A stretch of 64,000 bases of DNA from Devosia geojensis (GTDB lineage: Bacteria; Pseudomonadota; Alphaproteobacteria; Rhizobiales; Devosiaceae): contig NZ_JZEX01000147.1 of assembly GCF_000969415.1 (NCBI RefSeq), positions 1-64,000 of the forward strand, given 5' to 3'. Of the stretch, positions 48,815 through 58,752 are shown one piece after another. Under the pieces are notes generated by a model, which worked only from the letters and a program-made list of their open reading frames with translations, did not search any database and had not been told where the DNA came from. Each line of letters starts with the position of its first letter. Within the stretch, counting starts at the first letter, position 1. The position numbers and the translations under genes are program-made.

Positions 48815-48829
48815 TTAATGGAGTGTTAA
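48815..48829. promoter_or_regulatory. CtrA binding site (perfect TTAA-N7-TTAA)
   Basis: TTAA-TGGAGTG-TTAA, followed by C. It matches the CtrA core exactly, is 67 bases upstream of flgB and lies between two flagellar operons. CtrA activates flagellar class II genes in Caulobacter, and cckA, its upstream kinase, is 3.7 kb away in this same cluster. Confidence 0.7.
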
Positions 48830-50448: not shown

Positions 50449-53400
50449 CTATCGGCTCGCCACCGTCGCCTGCGTCTGGCTGGCTTCCAGCGGCGTCAGG
50501 GCTCCATCGGCGCCATAGGCGTCGCGATAGGAGGCGAGAAAGGCATTGAGGCTGTCGATGGCGGCGATTTCGCGCGCAACCTGACGGAACTCGTTGCTCG
50601 ATGGCTCAAGCGTGGCGGTCACGTAGTCGAACATCGCCCATTCCGGCGAGACCGACATGCGTTCGACGAACTTGTCACGCAGCCGCGACACGCCGAAGCG
50701 GTCGCCCGCCAGCACGAAGCCGACCGCCGCCTTGACGACGTTCATGCGCGCCGCCTGGTTGAAGGCCGCCAGCTCCATACCCGAATACATCGCCTCCAGC
50801 ATTTCGGCCGCCATGGCGTAACGCCCCGCTTTCCAGTGCGCATCGATCCGCATGAGCGAGACATCCCTGCCGCTCATGTCGCTGAGCATGTCGAGCGCGA
50901 GTTCCTGCCGGCCCACTTCGATCAGCGCCCGCGCCTCCAGCACCCGCCGCTGGCGGGCGAGCGTCGTGCCGATCTCGGGCAGGCGCGTATCGGCCAACAC
51001 CCGCAGAGCCTGTTGCGGCTTGCGATCGGCGAGATGGATGACGGCAAGGTCTGCCGCAAGTTGACTGCGCGCCACGCCCTTGAGGCGGTTCTCGAGCTGG
51101 TAATCCAGCAACTCTGCCGCCTGCGCGAGCAGGTCGACCTGCACGAGTCGGCGGGCAAGATTGCGGATCATCTCGTCGCCGCGCGCGCCGGGCGGGGTCA
51201 GTTGCCGGAAATCATAATAGAGACCGAGCGCATCGACAGGCTCGAGAGTGTCCGCTCGTCCGTTGAGGAAGAGGTCGGCAAAAACCTTCTGTGCATCCGC
51301 GTGCATGGCATTGATCGCGGCGTTGTCGGCAAAGCTCGCCGAGGCCTGCCGCACCGTTTCGAAGCCCAGGCGATAGGCGCCATCGCGGAAGTAAAGCTCG
51401 GCCAGCATCTTCTGCATGTCGGCCTCGAGCGCATCGCCGCGCCAGAGCATCGCCTCGGCGGCCAGCGTCTCGGTGGCCTTGTTCATGTCGAGATTGCCGG
51501 CCGCATCGAGCAGGCGCAGCGTGCGGTAGACCGCTTCCGCCCGCGTCGGCCTGATGTCTGCGGCGATCACCTGCCCGTAGATGTCGATGGCCTCTTCCGG
51601 GCGCCCTTCGAGCTCGGCGAGCCGCCCCTGAAGGAGGTGATAGAGGCTCACCTGCCCAAGATCGAGCGCGGCGAAGTCGATCCCGGTAAAGAGGCGCTTG
51701 GCCATCTCGGCATCGCCGGTCTCGATCGCGGCGCGCAGGGCAGAGAGCTTGAAACGCAGTTGCACCCACACCGGATAGCTGTCGAGCACCGGCTCGGCGG
51801 CCCTAGCGTCCTCGCGCGCGCCGCGGAAATCGGAGGTTTCGGCACGGGCGATGGCGCGCCAGAGCATGGAATCGACATCGGCCGAAAGCAGCGGCGATTG
51901 CAGGATGGCGATGGCCTCGCGCGGACGTCCGGCAAGCGTATTGCCGATCGCCTGCGCCATGCGGATCTTGCGCAATTCCTCGTCGTTCGACGGATCCGCC
52001 CCGAGCACCCGCAGCACACCCAGCGCTTCGTGGGCGAAGCGGTTGGCGAGGTAGAACTGCGCGAGATTGAACCGCGCCGTCTCGCGCGCCTCGCCCTCGC
52101 TCTGGGCCGCCTGCCGCATCAGGTCCTCGCGGGTCTGCGACAGCACGCCCGCATCCGGCTGAGCCGGCCGGCGCAGGTCGATGAAGGCTGCCCGTGTCTC
52201 GCCGCGCCCGAAGAACGTCTCGCGGCGCACCTGGTCGAGCGAGGAAACGGTGAGTCCACCTTCGGCGCTGATGACCGCGAGCCGATCCTCCAGGCGCACC
52301 TCGACGCCCGGATGTTCCGGGCGGACGACGAGCCCGTGGACGCTGCGCAGCGCATCGAAATCGACATAGTCGAACGTGCGGGTGATCCCGCGCGCCGGCG
52401 GATAGGCGGTGACGACGCGCAGCGTGTCGCCCACCTGCGGATCGCGGAACTCGTGCACGCGCACCGGGCGCGCCATGTCCGCGGTCATCTCGTAGAGATC
52501 GGACGCCCCGAGTCGCCGCTCAAAGGTCACCGGCTCGGTCGGCGCCAACACCATATCCCCGAGCGAGAGCACCCATGCCCTACCCTCGGACCCGAGCGTC
52601 GCCAACCTGTCCCGCGCGAGCGCAATGCGCACGACCTGTGTGTCGCCGGCTGGCGTCACCTCGAAGGTGCTGGCGACATCGTCGAGCCTGGCGGCATCTT
52701 GCGGAGCCGCGATGGCGGCCCCGGTGTCGAACAGCATCCACAGCGAGTCACCGCGCCGGAACACGGCCGCCGGCACCTCTTCCTCGAAGGGAAAGACGAC
52801 CCGGACCGTATTGCCCTGGGTGGTGACGAACGGGGTCACCGGCGCCAGGGGCTCGGCGCGCAACATCGCGGTCGCCGGCTCCGCAGAAGTTTCGGCCGCC
52901 GCCTGCTCGACGGAGTCGGTCTCGGCCTCCGCCGCCAGCTCTTCGACGGCGATCTGCGGCAGCGCCGTGCCGGCAAGGTCGATGTCGAGCAGAAACTCGC
53001 GCGGGGAATTCTCGAAGAAACGCGGCGTGACGCCCTCGGCCAGCTTGAGACTCACGACCGCCCCGTCTGGCGTCTTTTCGGATGCAAGCGAAGCGAGTTC
53101 GGGTGGCAGGTCCACCGCAAGATCACGCAGATCCACGTCCACCGGCCACTCGAAGGCGATGCTGGCCTGGTCTTCCACCTGCTCGTAGCTGGCGGTCGTG
53201 TCGACGCTCCAGTTGAAGTGCAGGCGCAGGAACGTCGGGTTGCGCCCGATGCGCACCTCGGCCTGCGGATCGAGCTCGGCGACGTCGCGCTGTTTCCTCC
53301 GCCGCTCGGCCTCGATGGCGGCAAGCCGGGCGCGCTCGGCGAGTTCGTCGATCACCTCCTGCGGCAGACCCGGCGGCAGGCCCTGCCAGGAGAGAGGCAG

Positions 53401-53781
53401 GAGGTCGATGAACAGCCTCTCGCCCGCCTCGATGCTGTTGAAATTGAGATTGCGCCGCAGCGCGAACCGCACGCCCCCAAGATCGGGATCGACCCGGGCT
53501 ATGGAGACGTATTCGGGCAGCGCCAGATCGACGGCCGGCATCTGGACGCTGACCTCGTCGTTCTCGAATTCGATCGAGAGGACGCCGTTGTCCATCCACA
53601 CTTTGTGAGCAGGCAGCGTATCGCGTTCCGGGAAGCTGAGGACGAGGCGCCCGAAGCCCTCTTCCTGCGTGACGAAGAGCTGCGCGCGCTCCAGCGCGAG
53701 CGCCGAAGCCGGCAAGGCCACGAGCACCACGGCCGCACCAGCCGCGACCTTTCTCAAAGCAGACTTGAACACAGCCCCCAC
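50449..53781 (-). CDS. Large secreted TPR protein of unknown function in the flagellar cluster
   Basis: A 1110-residue protein with a Sec signal peptide (VFKSALRKVAAGAAVVLVALPASALA, cut near residue 30). Residues about 32-300 form two beta-rich repeats of the type LERAQLFVTQEEGFGRLVLSFPE and PTFLRLHFNWSVD, resembling AMIN/FimV-like modules with the phrase FENSPREFLLDID. A second beta-rich region spans 320-540. The C-terminal half (about 545-1100) is alpha-helical with TPR-like motifs (for example GRLAELEGRPEEAIDIYGQVIAADIRPTRAEA near 720). No enzyme motif or lipobox. Not a known flagellar protein. The start is GTG 53781 with AGGCGGG ahead; GTG 53772 is an alternative. A CtrA-like box is upstream. 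Confidence 0.85.
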   Translation of the reverse strand: MGAVFKSALRKVAAGAAVVLVALPASALALERAQLFVTQEEGFGRLVLSFPERDTLPAHKVWMDNGVLSIEFENDEVSVQMPAVDLALPEYVSIARVDPDLGGVRFALRRNLNFNSIEAGERLFIDLLPLSWQGLPPGLPQEVIDELAERARLAAIEAERRRKQRDVAELDPQAEVRIGRNPTFLRLHFNWSVDTTASYEQVEDQASIAFEWPVDVDLRDLAVDLPPELASLASEKTPDGAVVSLKLAEGVTPRFFENSPREFLLDIDLAGTALPQIAVEELAAEAETDSVEQAAAETSAEPATAMLRAEPLAPVTPFVTTQGNTVRVVFPFEEEVPAAVFRRGDSLWMLFDTGAAIAAPQDAARLDDVASTFEVTPAGDTQVVRIALARDRLATLGSEGRAWVLSLGDMVLAPTEPVTFERRLGASDLYEMTADMARPVRVHEFRDPQVGDTLRVVTAYPPARGITRTFDYVDFDALRSVHGLVVRPEHPGVEVRLEDRLAVISAEGGLTVSSLDQVRRETFFGRGETRAAFIDLRRPAQPDAGVLSQTREDLMRQAAQSEGEARETARFNLAQFYLANRFAHEALGVLRVLGADPSNDEELRKIRMAQAIGNTLAGRPREAIAILQSPLLSADVDSMLWRAIARAETSDFRGAREDARAAEPVLDSYPVWVQLRFKLSALRAAIETGDAEMAKRLFTGIDFAALDLGQVSLYHLLQGRLAELEGRPEEAIDIYGQVIAADIRPTRAEAVYRTLRLLDAAGNLDMNKATETLAAEAMLWRGDALEADMQKMLAELYFRDGAYRLGFETVRQASASFADNAAINAMHADAQKVFADLFLNGRADTLEPVDALGLYYDFRQLTPPGARGDEMIRNLARRLVQVDLLAQAAELLDYQLENRLKGVARSQLAADLAVIHLADRKPQQALRVLADTRLPEIGTTLARQRRVLEARALIEVGRQELALDMLSDMSGRDVSLMRIDAHWKAGRYAMAAEMLEAMYSGMELAAFNQAARMNVVKAAVGFVLAGDRFGVSRLRDKFVERMSVSPEWAMFDYVTATLEPSSNEFRQVAREIAAIDSLNAFLASYRDAYGADGALTPLEASQTQATVASR

Positions 53782-53886: not shown

Positions 53887-53901
53887 TTAACGCGCGATTA
53901 C
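53887..53901. promoter_or_regulatory. CtrA-like box upstream of the TPR protein gene
   Basis: TTAA-CGCGCGA-TTAC: half-sites correctly spaced by seven bases, one mismatch in the second half. It lies 106 bases upstream of the TPR gene start and between it and the phosphoesterase gene, where no other promoter is evident. Confidence 0.4.
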
Positions 53902-53910
53902 TCGTAGTGC

Positions 53911-54738
53911 TCAAGCCGGCTCGCTCGCCTTCTCGCGCGTTCGCCATTGCCCCTCCAGCCAGTCGCGCACGACAATGGTGATCTCGTCCGGCGAGATATC
54001 GACGATGTTGTAGGAATTCGGCTCGCCGCGCAGACGCGTGGAAATGGCCGAGGAGGCCTGCGCCACGAGAATCGGCGCCCGTGCCGCCTGGCGCAGGCCT
54101 GTTGGCGCGCCGACCGTCACCGGGTGCGTCGGTTCGTGGAGCCGCACATAGGATAGGTGAAAGTGCCCCGAAAGGACGAGCCGCACGCCGAGATCGGCAA
54201 AGCACCGCAGCGCCTCGTCGGCGCGTTTGACCAGCTTGGTGCGCTGCACCATCGGCTCGGTGGGAAAGAGCAGCGGATGGTGGGCGACGACCACGCGGAT
54301 CGAGTCCGGCGCGGCGCGCGAGAACCGCTGTTCCAGATGCTCCAGCTGGTCGCGCGAGATCGAGCCGTGTCCCCAGTTCCAGTCGAGCCGCATCCGGCGC
54401 GACGTCTTCATACCGGCTAGAGCCACTCCCTGCATCTCGAGGAACGGCTCGACGTCCTGCGCGATATATTTGCGATAGAGCCCATAAGGGTCGAGGAAGC
54501 GCCTGAAGATGTTGACCGCCGGCACGTCATGGTTGCCGGGCACGGCAAAGACCGGCGCATGGAGCGTATCGAGGAACGCGCGGGCCTGAGCGAACTCGGC
54601 GCTGCTGCCGACCTGGGTGAAATCGCCGGAAACGGCGATGAGGTCGGCGTTCTGTCCGGCGATGTCCGTGGCGAGGCTGCCCGAGGCGCCGGCGTCGTGG
54701 CGACCGAAGTGGAGATCGGAGAGATGAACGATCCTCAT
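53911..54738 (-). CDS. Metallophosphoesterase
   Basis: A 275-residue calcineurin-like phosphoesterase. Metal motifs: [11 protein letters not shown] (D8, H10), [18 protein letters not shown] (Asn, His, Asp), VVVAHHPLL, and [13 protein letters not shown] near the C-terminus. Closest to CpdA-like and DNA-repair Mre11-like enzymes; the substrate (cAMP, phospholipid, nucleotide) is unknown. ATG 54738 overlaps the lipid kinase stop by four bases, so the two are coupled. An upstream in-frame reading is antisense-like and rejected. Confidence 0.87.
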
Positions 54739-55676
54739 GCCGCCGAAGTCCCTTCCATGGGGGTCTGGGATGACGTCTGTGCCGGCATGACCATGGTCAA
54801 CGCCAGGGGGCGCACTTTGAAAACGAGCGGTGTCTCGATATTGGCGAGCTCGCCATCGAGCATCACCTTCACCGTCGGCTTCCTGGTGTCGACGGTGACC
54901 TCGCGCACATGCTCGATCCGCAGCGCATCGTCCTGCCGCCACCGCCCGAGGAACATGCCGAGCGTCAGGCGAATGAGGTCCGCGCCGGAGAGGTGCCGGA
55001 CGACGTAGAGCGTCAGCGTGCCGCTGTCGAGCCGATCGCGCGAGAACATGCGGCCGAACCCTTCGCTGAACTCGCTGCATACCACCGCGAAGGCCTGCGC
55101 CCGCTCGACGCGCGCCTCCCCCTCATCCGGGTTGATGGCGAGCGCCATGCGCCGGCTGCGCGCCAGCCGCCGCGCGAAGAACCGCGAGAAGCCGATGAAC
55201 TCGAGGAGACCGAAATGCCCACGCACCTTCTCGCGCGCCGCCGCGATCCCGGCGACGAAGCCGACGGCCGCCATGTGCAGGAACAGCCGACCGTTGACCT
55301 CGCCGATGTCGATGGGCCGCAACTCGCCGTCGGCGATGCCGGCCACCGCCTCCTCCAGGGTCAGCGGCAGACCGAGATCGCGCGCCACAGCGTTGACGGT
55401 TCCAAGCGGCAATACGGCAAGCGCCTTGTCCGTGCCGGCGAGGGCTCCTGCGAGCGCCGCGATGGTGCCGTCGCCACCTCCCGCAACGATGACATCCGCA
55501 TCGCTTTCGAGCGCCCGTTTCACGCGCTCGTCGAGAGAGACATCGGGGTCGGAATCGACCGTCACATCAAGCCCGCGATCGGCGAAGACCGCCTCCAGGG
55601 TCTGTGATGTGACGCCTGTTGCGCTGGCTGTCCCGGCGCTGGCGTTGAGGATGACGTGGTAGGAAAGCTTGGGCAC
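54735..55676 (-). CDS. Diacylglycerol kinase family lipid kinase
   Basis: A 313-residue DgkB/YegS-like lipid kinase. The catalytic motif GGGDGT is at 66-71, preceded by NASAGTASA and followed by [18 protein letters not shown] (the G-T-x-N-x-x-A-R block). Phosphorylates diacylglycerol or a related lipid in the inner leaflet. GTG start 55676. Overlaps the phosphoesterase start by four bases, suggesting a lipid-phosphate kinase/phosphatase pair; the phosphoesterase fold, however, is of the nucleotide type, so the pairing is only suggestive. Confidence 0.88.
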
Positions 55677-55755: not shown

Positions 55756-56586
55756 TCACTGCCCTACGATCTGCGGCAACGCCGCGAAGTCGTCCGGCGT
55801 CATCTGGTCGGCGGGCTCGTCACGCGTGGCGGCAAGGCGCACCGTCAGCTCCTGGGCCCGGGTCGGATTCATCGCCGCCAGGATCGGCGCCATCCTGCGC
55901 GGCGCCATCGCTCGCGAGACCTGCAGCAGCACGTCGATGTCGAGCTCGTTGAAGATCGTCGCCGCATCGCGGGGGCGCATGGTCTCGTACATGGCGACGA
56001 TACCGGTGACCAGTTCCTCCTCGGCCGCCCTGCGCGCCTCGACGAGCGAAGCGATCTGGGCTTCCAGCGCCTCCATCGTGGCCGCGCGTTCCTCGATCCG
56101 CTTTTCGGCGGCCTCGATCAGGTCGGCCCGCATCTCGAGCTCGGCCGCATAGGCGTCGAGCTCGGTGCGGCGCTCGGCCAGCCGTTCCAGGAGGCTGCGC
56201 TCCGTCGCCCCGCCACCCATGGCATCGAGCGGTTCGGGCTGTTCATCCGCGACAACCTGAGGCGAGGCCGCATGCCCGGCTTCGATGGCATTGGCCCCGA
56301 TGGACTCTCCCGCCTCCTCGCCGCCCTCGGCAAGCCCATGCGTTCCCGCGATATCGGTCGGATCGACAGTCGGCGCGCGGTCGGCAAGCGTTGGCGATGA
56401 ATCCTCGGCTGTCGGATCGATGAGTTGCAAGGCGCCGGCATTGCCTGCCGGCTCGGGTCCGGCAGCTGCGGCCTCGCTGACGCCTGTCAGCACGTAGCCG
56501 CCCTGCGTCATCAGGCCGATGGACTTGAACGTCAGCAATGCGGCGGTCGCACAGACGACGACCGGCAGGAGGCGAATGGTCCTCAC
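55756..56586 (-). CDS. motE: Flagellar motor protein MotE (MgtE-N-like domain)
   Basis: A 276-residue protein of the Rhizobiales MotE type, a periplasmic motor chaperone for MotC in Sinorhizobium meliloti. N-terminal hydrophobic signal or anchor (IRLLPVVVCATAALLTFKSIGL), acidic linker 50-120, a coiled coil about 125-190 (LLERLAERRTELDAYAAELEMRADLI), and a C-terminal MgtE-N-like helical domain (YETMRPRDAATIFNELDIDVLLQVSRAMAPRRMAPILAAMNPTRAQELT). GTG 56586 overlaps the previous stop (GTGA). Forms the last gene of fliL-fliM-DUF6468-motE. Confidence 0.85.
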   Translation of the reverse strand: MRTIRLLPVVVCATAALLTFKSIGLMTQGGYVLTGVSEAAAAGPEPAGNAGALQLIDPTAEDSSPTLADRAPTVDPTDIAGTHGLAEGGEEAGESIGANAIEAGHAASPQVVADEQPEPLDAMGGGATERSLLERLAERRTELDAYAAELEMRADLIEAAEKRIEERAATMEALEAQIASLVEARRAAEEELVTGIVAMYETMRPRDAATIFNELDIDVLLQVSRAMAPRRMAPILAAMNPTRAQELTVRLAATRDEPADQMTPDDFAALPQIVGQ

Positions 56587-57014
56587 GCCGCGTTCCCCCG
56601 CTCGCGGGCATGGGCCGCGAGCCTATCAAGCGCCTGCTGCACCTTGTTGGACTCGCTGACCGGCTCGATGGAGCCGCCTTCGCGCACCGCCCGGGCAATC
56701 CGCGAGATGCGCTCGACGAGCGCGCTGCCCGAATTGACGTGGTTGGCGAGTTCGATACCGAACCGCTCGGCCTCGTCCAGCCGCGCGGTGAGCATGGTGT
56801 CTGCCTCGACCGCGGATTGCTTCAATTCCTTGATCGCCTGGTTGGCCAGATGCGTCGCGCCCACCAGATCCGCGATCATCTGCTTGAGCATATCGCGATC
56901 CGCATGCAGGCGTTTCAGCCGCGCATTGAGCACCACGCAATAGCCGATGGTGAGCGCCAGGAGCAGGGCCACGGCTCCTTCGATCAGGAGCCCGAGAGGA
57001 AGTTGCTGCATCAT
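56583..57014 (-). CDS. DUF6468 protein of the fliM operon
   Basis: A 143-residue single-span protein, with a hydrophobic N-terminus (GLLIEGAVALLLALTIGYCVVL) followed by a coiled-coil domain (LKRLHADRDMLKQMIADLVGATHLANQAIKELK...). The product resembles DUF6468 proteins that sit beside fliM and motE in Rhizobiales; its role is unknown, and a motor assembly or stator-related function is plausible from position. The start ATGATG overlaps the fliM stop (57011-57014); either ATG may be used. Confidence 0.75.
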   Translation of the reverse strand: MMQQLPLGLLIEGAVALLLALTIGYCVVLNARLKRLHADRDMLKQMIADLVGATHLANQAIKELKQSAVEADTMLTARLDEAERFGIELANHVNSGSALVERISRIARAVREGGSIEPVSESNKVQQALDRLAAHARERGNAA

Positions 57015-58183
57015 TTGCCGTCCATTGACTCGTCGATCGCCTCGAAGGCCGCCATGGTGACCTTGGGTGGATTGAGCGGGCGCACCACCCGCACCGAAAC
57101 ATTCTTGCCGATATGGCCCATGATGGCCTGCGTCAGTTCCACCGAGCCGCAACGCAGTTGCACGGGGTCGGCCGGCGCGCGTTCGAACATCACCGTGTCC
57201 CCTTCCTTGAGGAACATGATGCGTTTCAGCGGCAGGTCCTGCTCGTGGAGCACTGCGTCGATCTCGACCTCGGCCTGGTAGATCTCGGTGGCCAGGTGCC
57301 CTTCCCAGATCGGGTCGCGGCCGAACTTTTCACCCATGAACATCTGCAGGAGCTGTTCACGGATCGGCTCGATGGTCGCGTAGGGCAGCAGAATCTCGAT
57401 CTTGCCGCCGCGATCGTCCATCTCGATGCGCAATTCGATGAGAATCGCCGCATTCGCAGGCCGCGAGATGGCGGCAAAGCGCGGATTGGTCTCCATGCGC
57501 TCGAGCTTGAAGTTGACCTGCGTCACCGGCTCGAACGCGCGGTGCGTGTCATCGAGGATCACCTCGATCAACCGGCGCGCCAGCGTCATCTCGATGGTCG
57601 TATAAGGCCGCCCTTCCACCCGGATCGCCCCACCCGTGCGCCGGCCGCCGAGCAGCACGTCGATCATCGAGTAGATGAGATTGGAGTCGATGGTCAGCAG
57701 CCCGTAGTTGTCCCATTCTTCGGCCTTGATGACCGAGAGGATGGCGGGCAGCGGGATCGAGTTGAGATAGTCGCCGAAACGGACAGACGAGATCGATTCC
57801 ATCGACACTTCGACATTGTCCGAAGTGAAGTTACGCAAACTCGTCGTCGCCAGCCGCACCAGCCGATCGAAGACGATCTCCAGCATCGGCAGGCGCTCGT
57901 AGGAAACGAGCGCCGAGTTGATCAGCGCCTGCACGCCCGTCAGCTCGACGTTGCCGCCGGCGTTGGGATCGAACCCGAGGAGGCTGTCGATCTCGTCCTG
58001 GTTGAGCACCCGGCCGCCCGCCTCGCCCTCGGTGCCGGCCGGGTCGGCCTCCAGCATCGCCGCCCACTCGGCAGCGGCCGCGGCAGCGCGCTCGTCGTCG
58101 CTCATCGCCTTGCCGGAGATATCGTCGAGGGCGTCGAGCCCCCAGTCCTCGCTCAGCTTGTCCTGTTCACCGGGTCCGGGCAT
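57011..58183 (-). CDS. fliM: Flagellar switch protein FliM with N-terminal extension
   Basis: C-ring switch component that binds CheY-P. The FliM core begins at VLNQDEIDSLLGFDPNAGG, residues 59-77, whereas in most FliM this EIDxLL CheY-binding motif is at residue 5-15. About 58 acidic, Ala-rich residues (DEERAAAAAAEWAAMLEADPAG) precede it. The middle domain has NSALVSYERLPMLEIVFDRLVRLATTSLRNFTSDNVEV and the C-terminal SpoA domain has PVQLRCGSVELTQAIMGHIGKNVSVRVV. Start: GTG 58186 or ATG 58183, the latter chosen; the stop overlaps the DUF6468 start. Confidence 0.95.
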   Translation of the reverse strand: MPGPGEQDKLSEDWGLDALDDISGKAMSDDERAAAAAAEWAAMLEADPAGTEGEAGGRVLNQDEIDSLLGFDPNAGGNVELTGVQALINSALVSYERLPMLEIVFDRLVRLATTSLRNFTSDNVEVSMESISSVRFGDYLNSIPLPAILSVIKAEEWDNYGLLTIDSNLIYSMIDVLLGGRRTGGAIRVEGRPYTTIEMTLARRLIEVILDDTHRAFEPVTQVNFKLERMETNPRFAAISRPANAAILIELRIEMDDRGGKIEILLPYATIEPIREQLLQMFMGEKFGRDPIWEGHLATEIYQAEVEIDAVLHEQDLPLKRIMFLKEGDTVMFERAPADPVQLRCGSVELTQAIMGHIGKNVSVRVVRPLNPPKVTMAAFEAIDESMDGK

Positions 58184-58677
58184 CACTGCACCAGCAATTC
58201 TTTAAAGAGCACGCTCTCAGCCCGCGAAGGATAGATGGCGACATTGACGCGCCGCAGCAGCTCTTCCTTCATCCGGTAGACGCCGGCCGAACCTTCGAGG
58301 TCGCTCTTGCGCAGCTCGCGCAGATAGACCTGGAAGGCATCGATGACCTTGGCGAGACGGGGCTGGATGTCGAGCATCATCTGCTCGTTGGCGACTTCCA
58401 GCGCCACCGTGACGCGCAGGAACGACTGCCCCTCGCCCTCGTCGTTGAGGTTCACCGTCATCGTCGGCAGGTTGAAGATGAAGGTTTCGACCGGTGCAAT
58501 CACGCCACCTTCGGCGACCGACTGCTGCTGGCTCGAAGAGAGATAGAAGTAGAGCCCGGCGCCACCGGCCAGGATCACGGCCAGTGCCGCGCCGCCAATG
58601 ATGAGCAACAAGCGGCCACGCCCGCCCTTGGCAGGCACCTGGCCGGCGCCCTCTTGAATTTCTGCATCAGCGGCCAT
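58183..58677 (-). CDS. fliL: Flagellar basal body protein FliL
   Basis: A 164-residue inner-membrane motor protein. A short cytoplasmic N-terminus, one span (RLLLIIGGAALAVILAGGAGLYFYL, residues about 22-46), and a periplasmic stomatin-like domain with ETFIFNLPTMTVNLNDEGEGQSFLRVTVALEV and QPRLAKVIDAFQVYLRELRKSDLEGSAGVYRMKEELLRRVN. FliL supports stator function and fliM is cotranscribed, as in Caulobacter. A CtrA-like box lies 61 bases upstream. Confidence 0.95.
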   Translation of the reverse strand: MAADAEIQEGAGQVPAKGGRGRLLLIIGGAALAVILAGGAGLYFYLSSSQQQSVAEGGVIAPVETFIFNLPTMTVNLNDEGEGQSFLRVTVALEVANEQMMLDIQPRLAKVIDAFQVYLRELRKSDLEGSAGVYRMKEELLRRVNVAIYPSRAESVLFKELLVQ

Positions 58678-58737: not shown

Positions 58738-58752
58738 TTAACGAATGGTTAC
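58738..58752. promoter_or_regulatory. CtrA-like box before fliL
   Basis: TTAA-CGAATGG-TTAC: correctly spaced half-sites, one mismatch in the second. Position 61 bases upstream of the fliL start matches a CtrA-activated promoter. The Caulobacter fliLM promoter is a known CtrA target. Confidence 0.55.

Follow-up and report, generated by a model that had tools for sequence, protein, structure and literature searches.

Introduction

Several periplasmic proteins of flagellar motors, as described in other bacteria, resemble a 1110-residue protein encoded by the soil bacterium Devosia geojensis. The gene lies at positions 50449 to 53781 on the minus strand of contig NZ_JZEX01000147.1, of which positions 1 to 64,000 were analysed (this whole 64,000-nucleotide stretch is called the window here). 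A preliminary description of the window had presented the protein as the best candidate for an undescribed flagellar component, one that no known flagellar part fitted.

In Caulobacter, CC_2058 (fssB) encodes a protein with a secretion signal and a tetratricopeptide repeat (TPR) region. Cells with an fssB deletion have filaments and do not swim, which resembles the phenotype of a motB mutant, and the deletion suppresses the hyperadhesion of a flgH mutant, a response linked to mechanical signalling (PMC7885107). Cereibacter has two periplasmic proteins, MotK and MotE, which interact with one another and with MotB2; both are found at the pole that bears the flagellum, and rotation depends on them. 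Mutants in motK assemble filaments and are paralysed (PMC10954123). CC_2058 was proposed in the same paper to be a distant MotK with an AMIN-like start, and no BLAST similarity was reported between MotK and the Caulobacteraceae proteins (PMC10954123).

MotE is a homologue of FlgY and FlbB, which form the E-ring. This ring was first seen in 1979, in Caulobacter, where the assignment of its periplasmic partner rests on structural resemblance, and CC_2058, MotK and MotC have been placed beside PflA on structural grounds (PMC11870540, PMC13023049). The spoke protein PflA combines TPRs with a beta-sandwich at the N-terminus (PMC12222027) and is not conserved in sequence (PMC11870540). MotC of rhizobia is a periplasmic motility protein that partners MotE, and the Borrelia collar protein FlcB is a TPR-rich partner of the MotE homologue FlbB (PMC13023049).

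We consider it likely that the 1110-residue protein is the Devosia counterpart of FssB and MotK, a partner of MotE and a PflA-like spoke that would support the stators. The evidence comes from its domain architecture, a class-wide linkage of its family to fliM and motE, an AMIN fold, the top-ranked Foldseek match and a conserved CtrA-like box that the gene has to itself. Because the papers cited above cover the same kind of protein, FssB, MotK and PflA-like spokes, the gene product can no longer be called an undescribed component; a signal peptide, an AMIN-type beginning, a TPR half and a gene location following motE have all been published for CC_2058 as well (PMC7885107, PMC10954123, PMC11870540, PMC13023049). 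The scaffold interpretation offered in the preliminary description stands.

Features of the 1110-residue protein

The gene for this putative FssB/MotK/PflA-like motor protein was a single open reading frame (ORF) running from a GTG at 53781 to a stop at 50449. Many relatives likewise have a GTG at the corresponding place, preceding a stretch that resembles a signal peptide; their start codons were chosen by a script rule. The N-terminus carried a hydrophobic run followed by ALA at residues 27 to 29, and by eye it was judged to be a Sec-like signal peptide with a cleavage site after residue 29 (residues 1 to 29; 53695-53781, minus strand). This was the only hydrophobic segment of the protein, which contained no cysteine, and the mature product had a calculated mass of about 119 kDa and a pI of 4.8.

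Pfam and NCBIfam scans matched no family, and no enzyme family in particular, above the cut-off; the Pfam scan returned only a sub-threshold match to TPR_7. A phmmer search of PDB sequences with the protein gave no matches. When PDB sequences were searched with a profile, EMC2 and designed TPR proteins were the best matches, which we read as generic TPR matches, and there was a weak match to LpoA (E 0.018-0.022). The coordinates, strand, length, signal peptide and absence of enzyme motifs given in the preliminary description were all borne out by these results.

Predicted fold and domain layout

An AlphaFold2 model of the whole protein, built with 49 sequences, had a pLDDT of 87.9 but a pTM of 0.51, so the domains were treated as reliable and their mutual placement was not. 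In this model, a TPR superhelix was preceded by four beta-sandwiches in two blocks (all coordinates on the minus strand). Sandwich 1 (residues 31-129; 53395-53691) and sandwich 2 (residues 174-268; 52978-53262) were AMIN-like, and a long connecting helix (residues 141-170; 53272-53361) lay between them. Sandwich 3 (residues 318-408; 52558-52830) and sandwich 4 (residues 420-506; 52264-52524) followed, and the TPR-like superhelix spanned residues 540 to 1092 (50506-52164). Two beta-rich regions with AMIN-like features had been expected from the preliminary description; the model contained twice that number, and the AMIN likeness held for the first two.

The N-terminal part modelled alone (residues 28-512) had a pLDDT of 91.1. 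In VIA-align comparisons, residues 28 to 143 of this model matched AmiC (4bin) with a Z of 11.8 and an rmsd of 2.5 over 103 aligned residues, and approximately residues 171 to 272 matched PilQ (4aqz, Z 10.8; 4av2, Z 10.7). The other top rows were a PilQ model (3jc8), which had a Z of 12.6 but an rmsd of 19.6, and 5h3k, a Synechocystis protein of unknown function (Z 11.1). The list fell to a Z of 6.9 at rank 6.

The long TPR-like helical half was recovered with AlphaFold2, VIA-align and Foldseek, as had been described previously from the sequence. The VIA-align rows for the whole model were varied TPR proteins with Z values of up to 19.9, mostly over residues 541 to 900, and included PilF (2fi7, Z 13.7). 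These rows indicate a TPR superhelix and nothing about function. In the Foldseek search with the whole model, the first of 350,542 PDB chains was 9hmf_K, with an E of 7.6e-10; the second match had an E of 1.0e-6. Entry 9hmf is the flagellar motor scaffold of Campylobacter jejuni, and chain K has 773 residues. Because this number equals the length of PflA 16-788, the construct named in PMC11870540, we infer that the chain is PflA.

Two further features of the TPR half were apparent in the aligned family. Residues 841 to 960 (50902-51261) were the most conserved stretch, with a mean majority-residue share of 0.73 versus 0.33-0.57 in other regions, and a WRG[DGNT] motif was located at residues 780 to 783 (51433-51444), its WRG being present in 49 of 49 aligned sequences.

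Distribution of the family and its link to flagella

The gene was single-copy in its own genome and was present in all 24 same-genus genomes searched. A near-full-length, stop-free match was found in 23 of them, and in the remaining genome, which was 62% complete, the match was split over two contigs. Devosia nitrariae was the nearest named relative among the matches listed (74% identity); the next relatives among the best 80 listed were many Devosia and then Pelagibacterium, Maritalea, Roseibium, Stappia and other Hyphomicrobiales. The family was found in 8 of 16 other genomes of the order, and seven of the eight that lacked it also had no match to the MotB plug.

For a class-wide survey, 289 alphaproteobacterial genomes were searched with the family profile and for FliM at a threshold of E <= 0.001. 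The family was detected in 158 genomes and FliM in 160; both were found in 146, the family alone in 12, FliM alone in 14 and neither in 117. Expressed differently, 146 of 160 FliM-bearing genomes and 12 of 129 FliM-lacking genomes had the family (Fisher p ~1e-49, a value that ignores relatedness). Both coordinates were listed for 131 of the 146 co-occurrences, with the two genes on the same contig in 103 cases and on different contigs in 28. In 102 of the 103 same-contig pairs, the homologue was within 12 kb of fliM (median over all 103, 3.75 kb) and 101 pairs were on the same strand; the exceptional pair was 1 Mb apart. This tight linkage is contrary to a scatter of homologues away from flagellar genes, which the preliminary description had named as an outcome that would refute its reading.

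The genomes in which only one of the two was detected were also inspected. Seven of the 12 FliM-lacking genomes had strong family matches, and five of these seven were less than 90% complete; the other five genomes had weak matches (1.3e-14 to 8.4e-4) that we read as generic TPR matches. MotB was found in 10 of the 14 FliM-bearing genomes without the family. Four stator loci read from such genomes encoded a MotA of 252-257 aa and a MotB of 384-413 aa, and no large periplasmic gene was seen among ORFs of at least 120 aa that lie up to about 5 kb away on the strand of the stator genes. We read these four loci as belonging to a different flagellar type.

In a separate sample of 249 genomes from the phylum, all family matches below 1e-100 were within Alphaproteobacteria. 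Seven genomes of other classes gave only weak, TPR-type matches (4.7e-7 to 7.7e-4), and four positive alphaproteobacterial genomes were equally weak (9.6e-7 to 1.1e-4).

Thirteen plasmid records also matched the family; 11 of them annotate the product as "hypothetical protein", one as "tetratricopeptide repeat protein" and one carries no annotation. The three records that were opened, from Azospirillum brasilense, Erythrobacter aureus and Salipiger, all contained flagellar clusters. The Azospirillum homologue adjoined motA-motB, and the Erythrobacter homologue was near fliL-fliM-DUF6468 and the gene for an MgtE_N protein. Profile comparison with the Azospirillum, Erythrobacter and Salipiger relatives gave probabilities of 99.7, 99.9 and 98.2%, respectively. 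The Salipiger relative is a 601-aa protein of Rhodobacterales and possibly a MotK, and its match (E 4.4e-14) covered only the TPR half.

These distributions bear on the idea that the flagellar position is incidental and that the protein is a general envelope TPR/AMIN factor, for example of a PilF/PilQ-like or LpoA-like kind. PilQ and AmiC were the best fold matches of the N-terminus, PilF was among the TPR rows and LpoA gave the weak profile match noted above, all of which would fit such a factor. However, the family follows FliM across the class, and synteny is kept across Hyphomicrobiales and extends to plasmid-borne flagellar clusters of three other orders, making an incidental position very improbable. 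The same data speak to a scaffold for polar assembly or a polar landmark, similar to FimV or TipN, that would place or build the flagellum rather than turn it. The preliminary description had raised this possibility together with a motor role, and an AMIN-type N-terminus joined to a TPR half is compatible with it. In contrast, homologues accompany fliM and motE, one of them lies beside motAB in a flagellar cluster on a plasmid, the Pfam and NCBIfam matches at E <= 1 included neither a FimV nor a LysM family, and mutants of the proposed counterparts motK and fssB still build filaments, which are paralysed (PMC10954123, PMC7885107). Polar assembly is less likely for this last reason, and we regard it as improbable overall; the part of the earlier suggestion that is retained, based on architecture and relatives, is a periplasmic scaffold with a role in the motor.

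Two side observations were made on homologues in this set. In one same-genus genome (G003), a second homologue with about 34% identity (L028 1019-4681) was found on a 4.8-kb contig in addition to the full-length copy. It adjoined a MotE-like gene, and because the genome is 5% contaminated, the contig may be foreign. On the A. brasilense plasmid p4 (L146 16348-18093), five consecutive RebB-type R-body genes were located near motA-motB and TPR genes.

A conserved CtrA-like box upstream of the gene

The preliminary description had pointed to a CtrA-like box at 53887, and the box proved to be a conserved feature. It occupied positions 53887 to 53901, read TTAA-N7-TTAC (GTAA-N7-TTAA on the gene strand), had one mismatch to TTAA-N7-TTAA and was located about 105-120 bp upstream of the gene start. 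Five CtrA-type boxes with at most one mismatch were found in the window compared to 0.9 expected, a number that 1 of 100 shuffles reached, and three of the five (48815, 53887 and 58738) were at flagellar promoters.

In related loci, a box with at most one mismatch was present within 350 bp upstream of the homologue in 73 of 77 cases (5 exact), versus about 3.2 expected from shuffles. When the same loci were examined upstream of neighbouring genes, boxes were absent for DUF6468 (0/74), motE (0/56), flgC (0/61), fliE (0/60), flhB (0/57) and fliP (0/31) and infrequent for fliM (1/73), fliQ (5/60), fliR (4/59) and cckA (5/49). The positive controls were flgB (62/62) and fliO (59/61), for which the exact box was found in 60 of 62 and 56 of 61 cases, respectively; in the window, the exact TTAA-N7-TTAA box at 48815-48829 was between the divergent flgB and fliO genes. 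Given the relatedness of the loci, these counts cannot be treated as independent; nonetheless, the contrast between neighbouring genes is clear. Judging from these sequence patterns, CtrA probably controls the 1110-residue gene by binding at 53887-53901.

Another CtrA-like box with one mismatch (58738-58752) was located just upstream of the fliL-like ORF that heads the fliM-motE operon.

The flagellar neighbourhood

Neighbourhoods were counted in the best 80 of at least 500 relatives, namely, those with named loci. The order in these relatives was fliM, DUF6468, motE and the homologue of the 1110-residue gene, followed on the opposite strand by fliP and fliO, and beyond fliO by flgB, flgC, fliE, fliQ, fliR, flhB and cckA. 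MotE was found in 76 of the 80 loci, FliM in 75, DUF6468 in 75 and a convergent FliP in 69. The sequence ends just upstream of the homologue in all five loci in which FliM was not found and in three of the four without MotE; the fourth of the latter was locus L113, in which MotE was not detected. In the window, the 1110-residue gene was convergent with fliP, as had been reported previously, and the two ORF ends were 2 bp apart. In at least 9 of the 11 loci in which FliP was missed, the sequence extends 1.8 kb or further downstream, and convergent fliP is therefore a common rather than a universal neighbour.

On the minus strand of the window, the upstream operon comprised a fliL-like ORF (58183-58677), named only for its position before fliM; fliM (57011-58186), identified by a profile match; a DUF6468 gene (56583-57152, as the ORF is listed; the true start is possibly further in); and the gene for the proposed partner, a MotE or E-ring-type protein with an MgtE_N match (55756-56586). 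DUF6468, whose gene adjoins fliM and motE, has no function in Pfam; it may be another accessory motor part. The MotE protein has 276 aa, which is near the 264 aa of Caulobacter CC_2059 and longer than the 179-185 aa of MotE in S. meliloti and C. sphaeroides (PMC13023049). It also gave a weak NCBIfam match to the spirochaete collar protein FlbB (E 1.4e-6, below the cut-off).

Between motE and the 1110-residue gene, the window contained a two-gene unit on the same strand, a diacylglycerol-kinase-like (DAGK) lipid kinase gene (54735-55676) and a metallophosphoesterase gene (53911-54741, the start being inferred from the domain boundary of an ORF that runs to 55080). Of the loci examined, only those of the window and D. 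nitrariae (L036) had this pair at this place, and the two genes were adjacent elsewhere in the genome in 14 of 25 other same-genus genomes. Therefore, the pair appears to have moved into the flagellar operon in the lineage of the window and D. nitrariae. Because the inserted unit lies upstream of the 53887 box, the box stayed with the 1110-residue gene.

Comparison with described motor proteins

The likeness to FssB (CC_2058, CCNA_02137; UniProt Q9A6M9 according to PMC10954123) extends to a Sec signal, an AMIN-like N-terminus, a TPR region and a location beside the motE homologue CC_2059; the Devosia locus differs in having the two-gene unit between motE and the 1110-residue gene. MotK of the Cereibacter sphaeroides Fla2 system is likewise periplasmic, with an AMIN-like N-terminus and a motE neighbourhood, and the fla2 genes are under CtrA. 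However, MotK has about 650 aa, as judged from a 2,163-bp clone, compared to 1110 in Devosia. The C. jejuni protein PflA, the top Foldseek match, shares an AMIN-resembling N-terminal beta-sandwich, a linker and a C-terminal TPR superhelix; it has one AMIN-type domain, whereas the Devosia protein has four sandwiches, and no sequence similarity between the two was detected by profile search. FlcB, by description, is similar in being a TPR-rich partner of a MotE homologue.

Rhizobial MotC is also a periplasmic motility protein partnered with MotE. Membership of MotC in the same family was considered and gained no support from an hhalign probability of 1.9% with one MotC-type protein, a result that leaves an independent origin unproven. 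That protein (404 aa) is encoded beside motB in a genome of the same order (G025; L166 8679-9893), and the NCBIfam MotC models match it at E 1.5e-38 and 5.5e-24, which is below their cut-offs. The lack of MotC similarity suggests that MotC is highly diverged or that some rhizobia use a different MotE partner. In G025, the MotC-type gene follows motB and the family is absent, as if MotC had replaced the 1110-residue protein.

Discussion

The reading of the 1110-residue protein as a MotE partner and PflA-like spoke has to be weighed against several results. The comparison with FssB and MotK was made with published descriptions rather than by sequence alignment. In the case of PflA, the local match to 9hmf_K has an rmsd of 26.6 and a low TM (0.16-0.21), the latter indicating a local resemblance along the chain and not a superposition. 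Neither 9hmf/PflA nor FlcB was among the 50 VIA-align rows for the whole model, the PDB-sequence profile search listed 29 other proteins and not PflA, and TPR repeats inflate fold and profile matches alike. At the N-terminus, Foldseek was weak (best match 3jc8 PilQ, E 1.4e-4; AmiC, E 0.21), and sandwiches 3 and 4 had no confident relative, the best VIA-align match being 6mv2 with a Z of 5.0. Eleven of the 146 co-occurrences with FliM involve weak family matches (E above 1e-50, the weakest 8.9e-9), and 14 FliM-bearing alphaproteobacterial genomes do not have the family. With the three plasmid relatives, the alignment is confined to the TPR half, and the Erythrobacter protein is only 548 aa long. 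In the 249-genome sample, the family was not found in 17 same-order genomes, most of them unchecked for flagella; no MotB was found in G110, the one that was checked. Finally, motB of D. geojensis is located on another contig. Taking these points into account, we still favour the counterpart reading.

According to this reading, the protein would be exported, remain soluble in the periplasm and form part of the flagellar motor. The N-terminal AMIN-type sandwiches may anchor it on peptidoglycan or on adjacent scaffold proteins. The C-terminal TPR superhelix may act as a PflA-like spoke that extends inward to MotB and to the E-ring that MotE forms around the MS-ring. Contact of the spoke with MotE and MotB would then recruit stators or hold them active. 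By analogy with Cereibacter MotK, the Devosia protein would be periplasmic, bind MotE and MotB and localise to the pole, and its loss would cause paralysis; by analogy with Caulobacter fssB, the paralysed cells would keep their filaments. The orientation proposed here is modelled on PflA-like spokes.

A related possibility is that the main task of the protein is to activate or stabilise stators, a role proposed for MotK and MotE, rather than to form a structural spoke. In Cereibacter, MotK binds MotB2 and depends on MotA2/MotB2 for its localisation (PMC10954123). Suppressors of the related Caulobacter fssA mutant have been mapped to motA and the plug of MotB (PMC7885107), and the Azospirillum homologue adjoins motA-motB. 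In contrast, the AMIN domains, the long TPR superhelix and the PflA chain at the top of the Foldseek ranking favour a scaffold. We therefore think it rather unlikely that stator activation is the main function; the activator and spoke roles may coexist.

Seen as a counterpart of FssB and MotK, an apparently unknown 1110-residue protein becomes a testable part of the motor. In most of the flagellated alphaproteobacteria sampled, the presumed partner of MotE would belong to one family that can be detected with a sequence profile, and this family is a candidate for a new Pfam or NCBIfam entry. We tentatively extend this to a wider proposal, in which a single, sequence-coherent family of stator scaffolds, each a TPR spoke carrying two AMIN domains and two other beta domains, would be found throughout Alphaproteobacteria and, in Hyphomicrobiales, would have a CtrA-type promoter of its own and thus be more than the last gene of the fliL-fliM-motE operon. 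The conservation of the promoter box suggests that a step of regulation acts specifically on the spoke. With such a promoter, the spoke could be produced independently of MotE, its partner in the E-ring, and if this is true, its separate production could determine the time at which the motor gains the ability to rotate.

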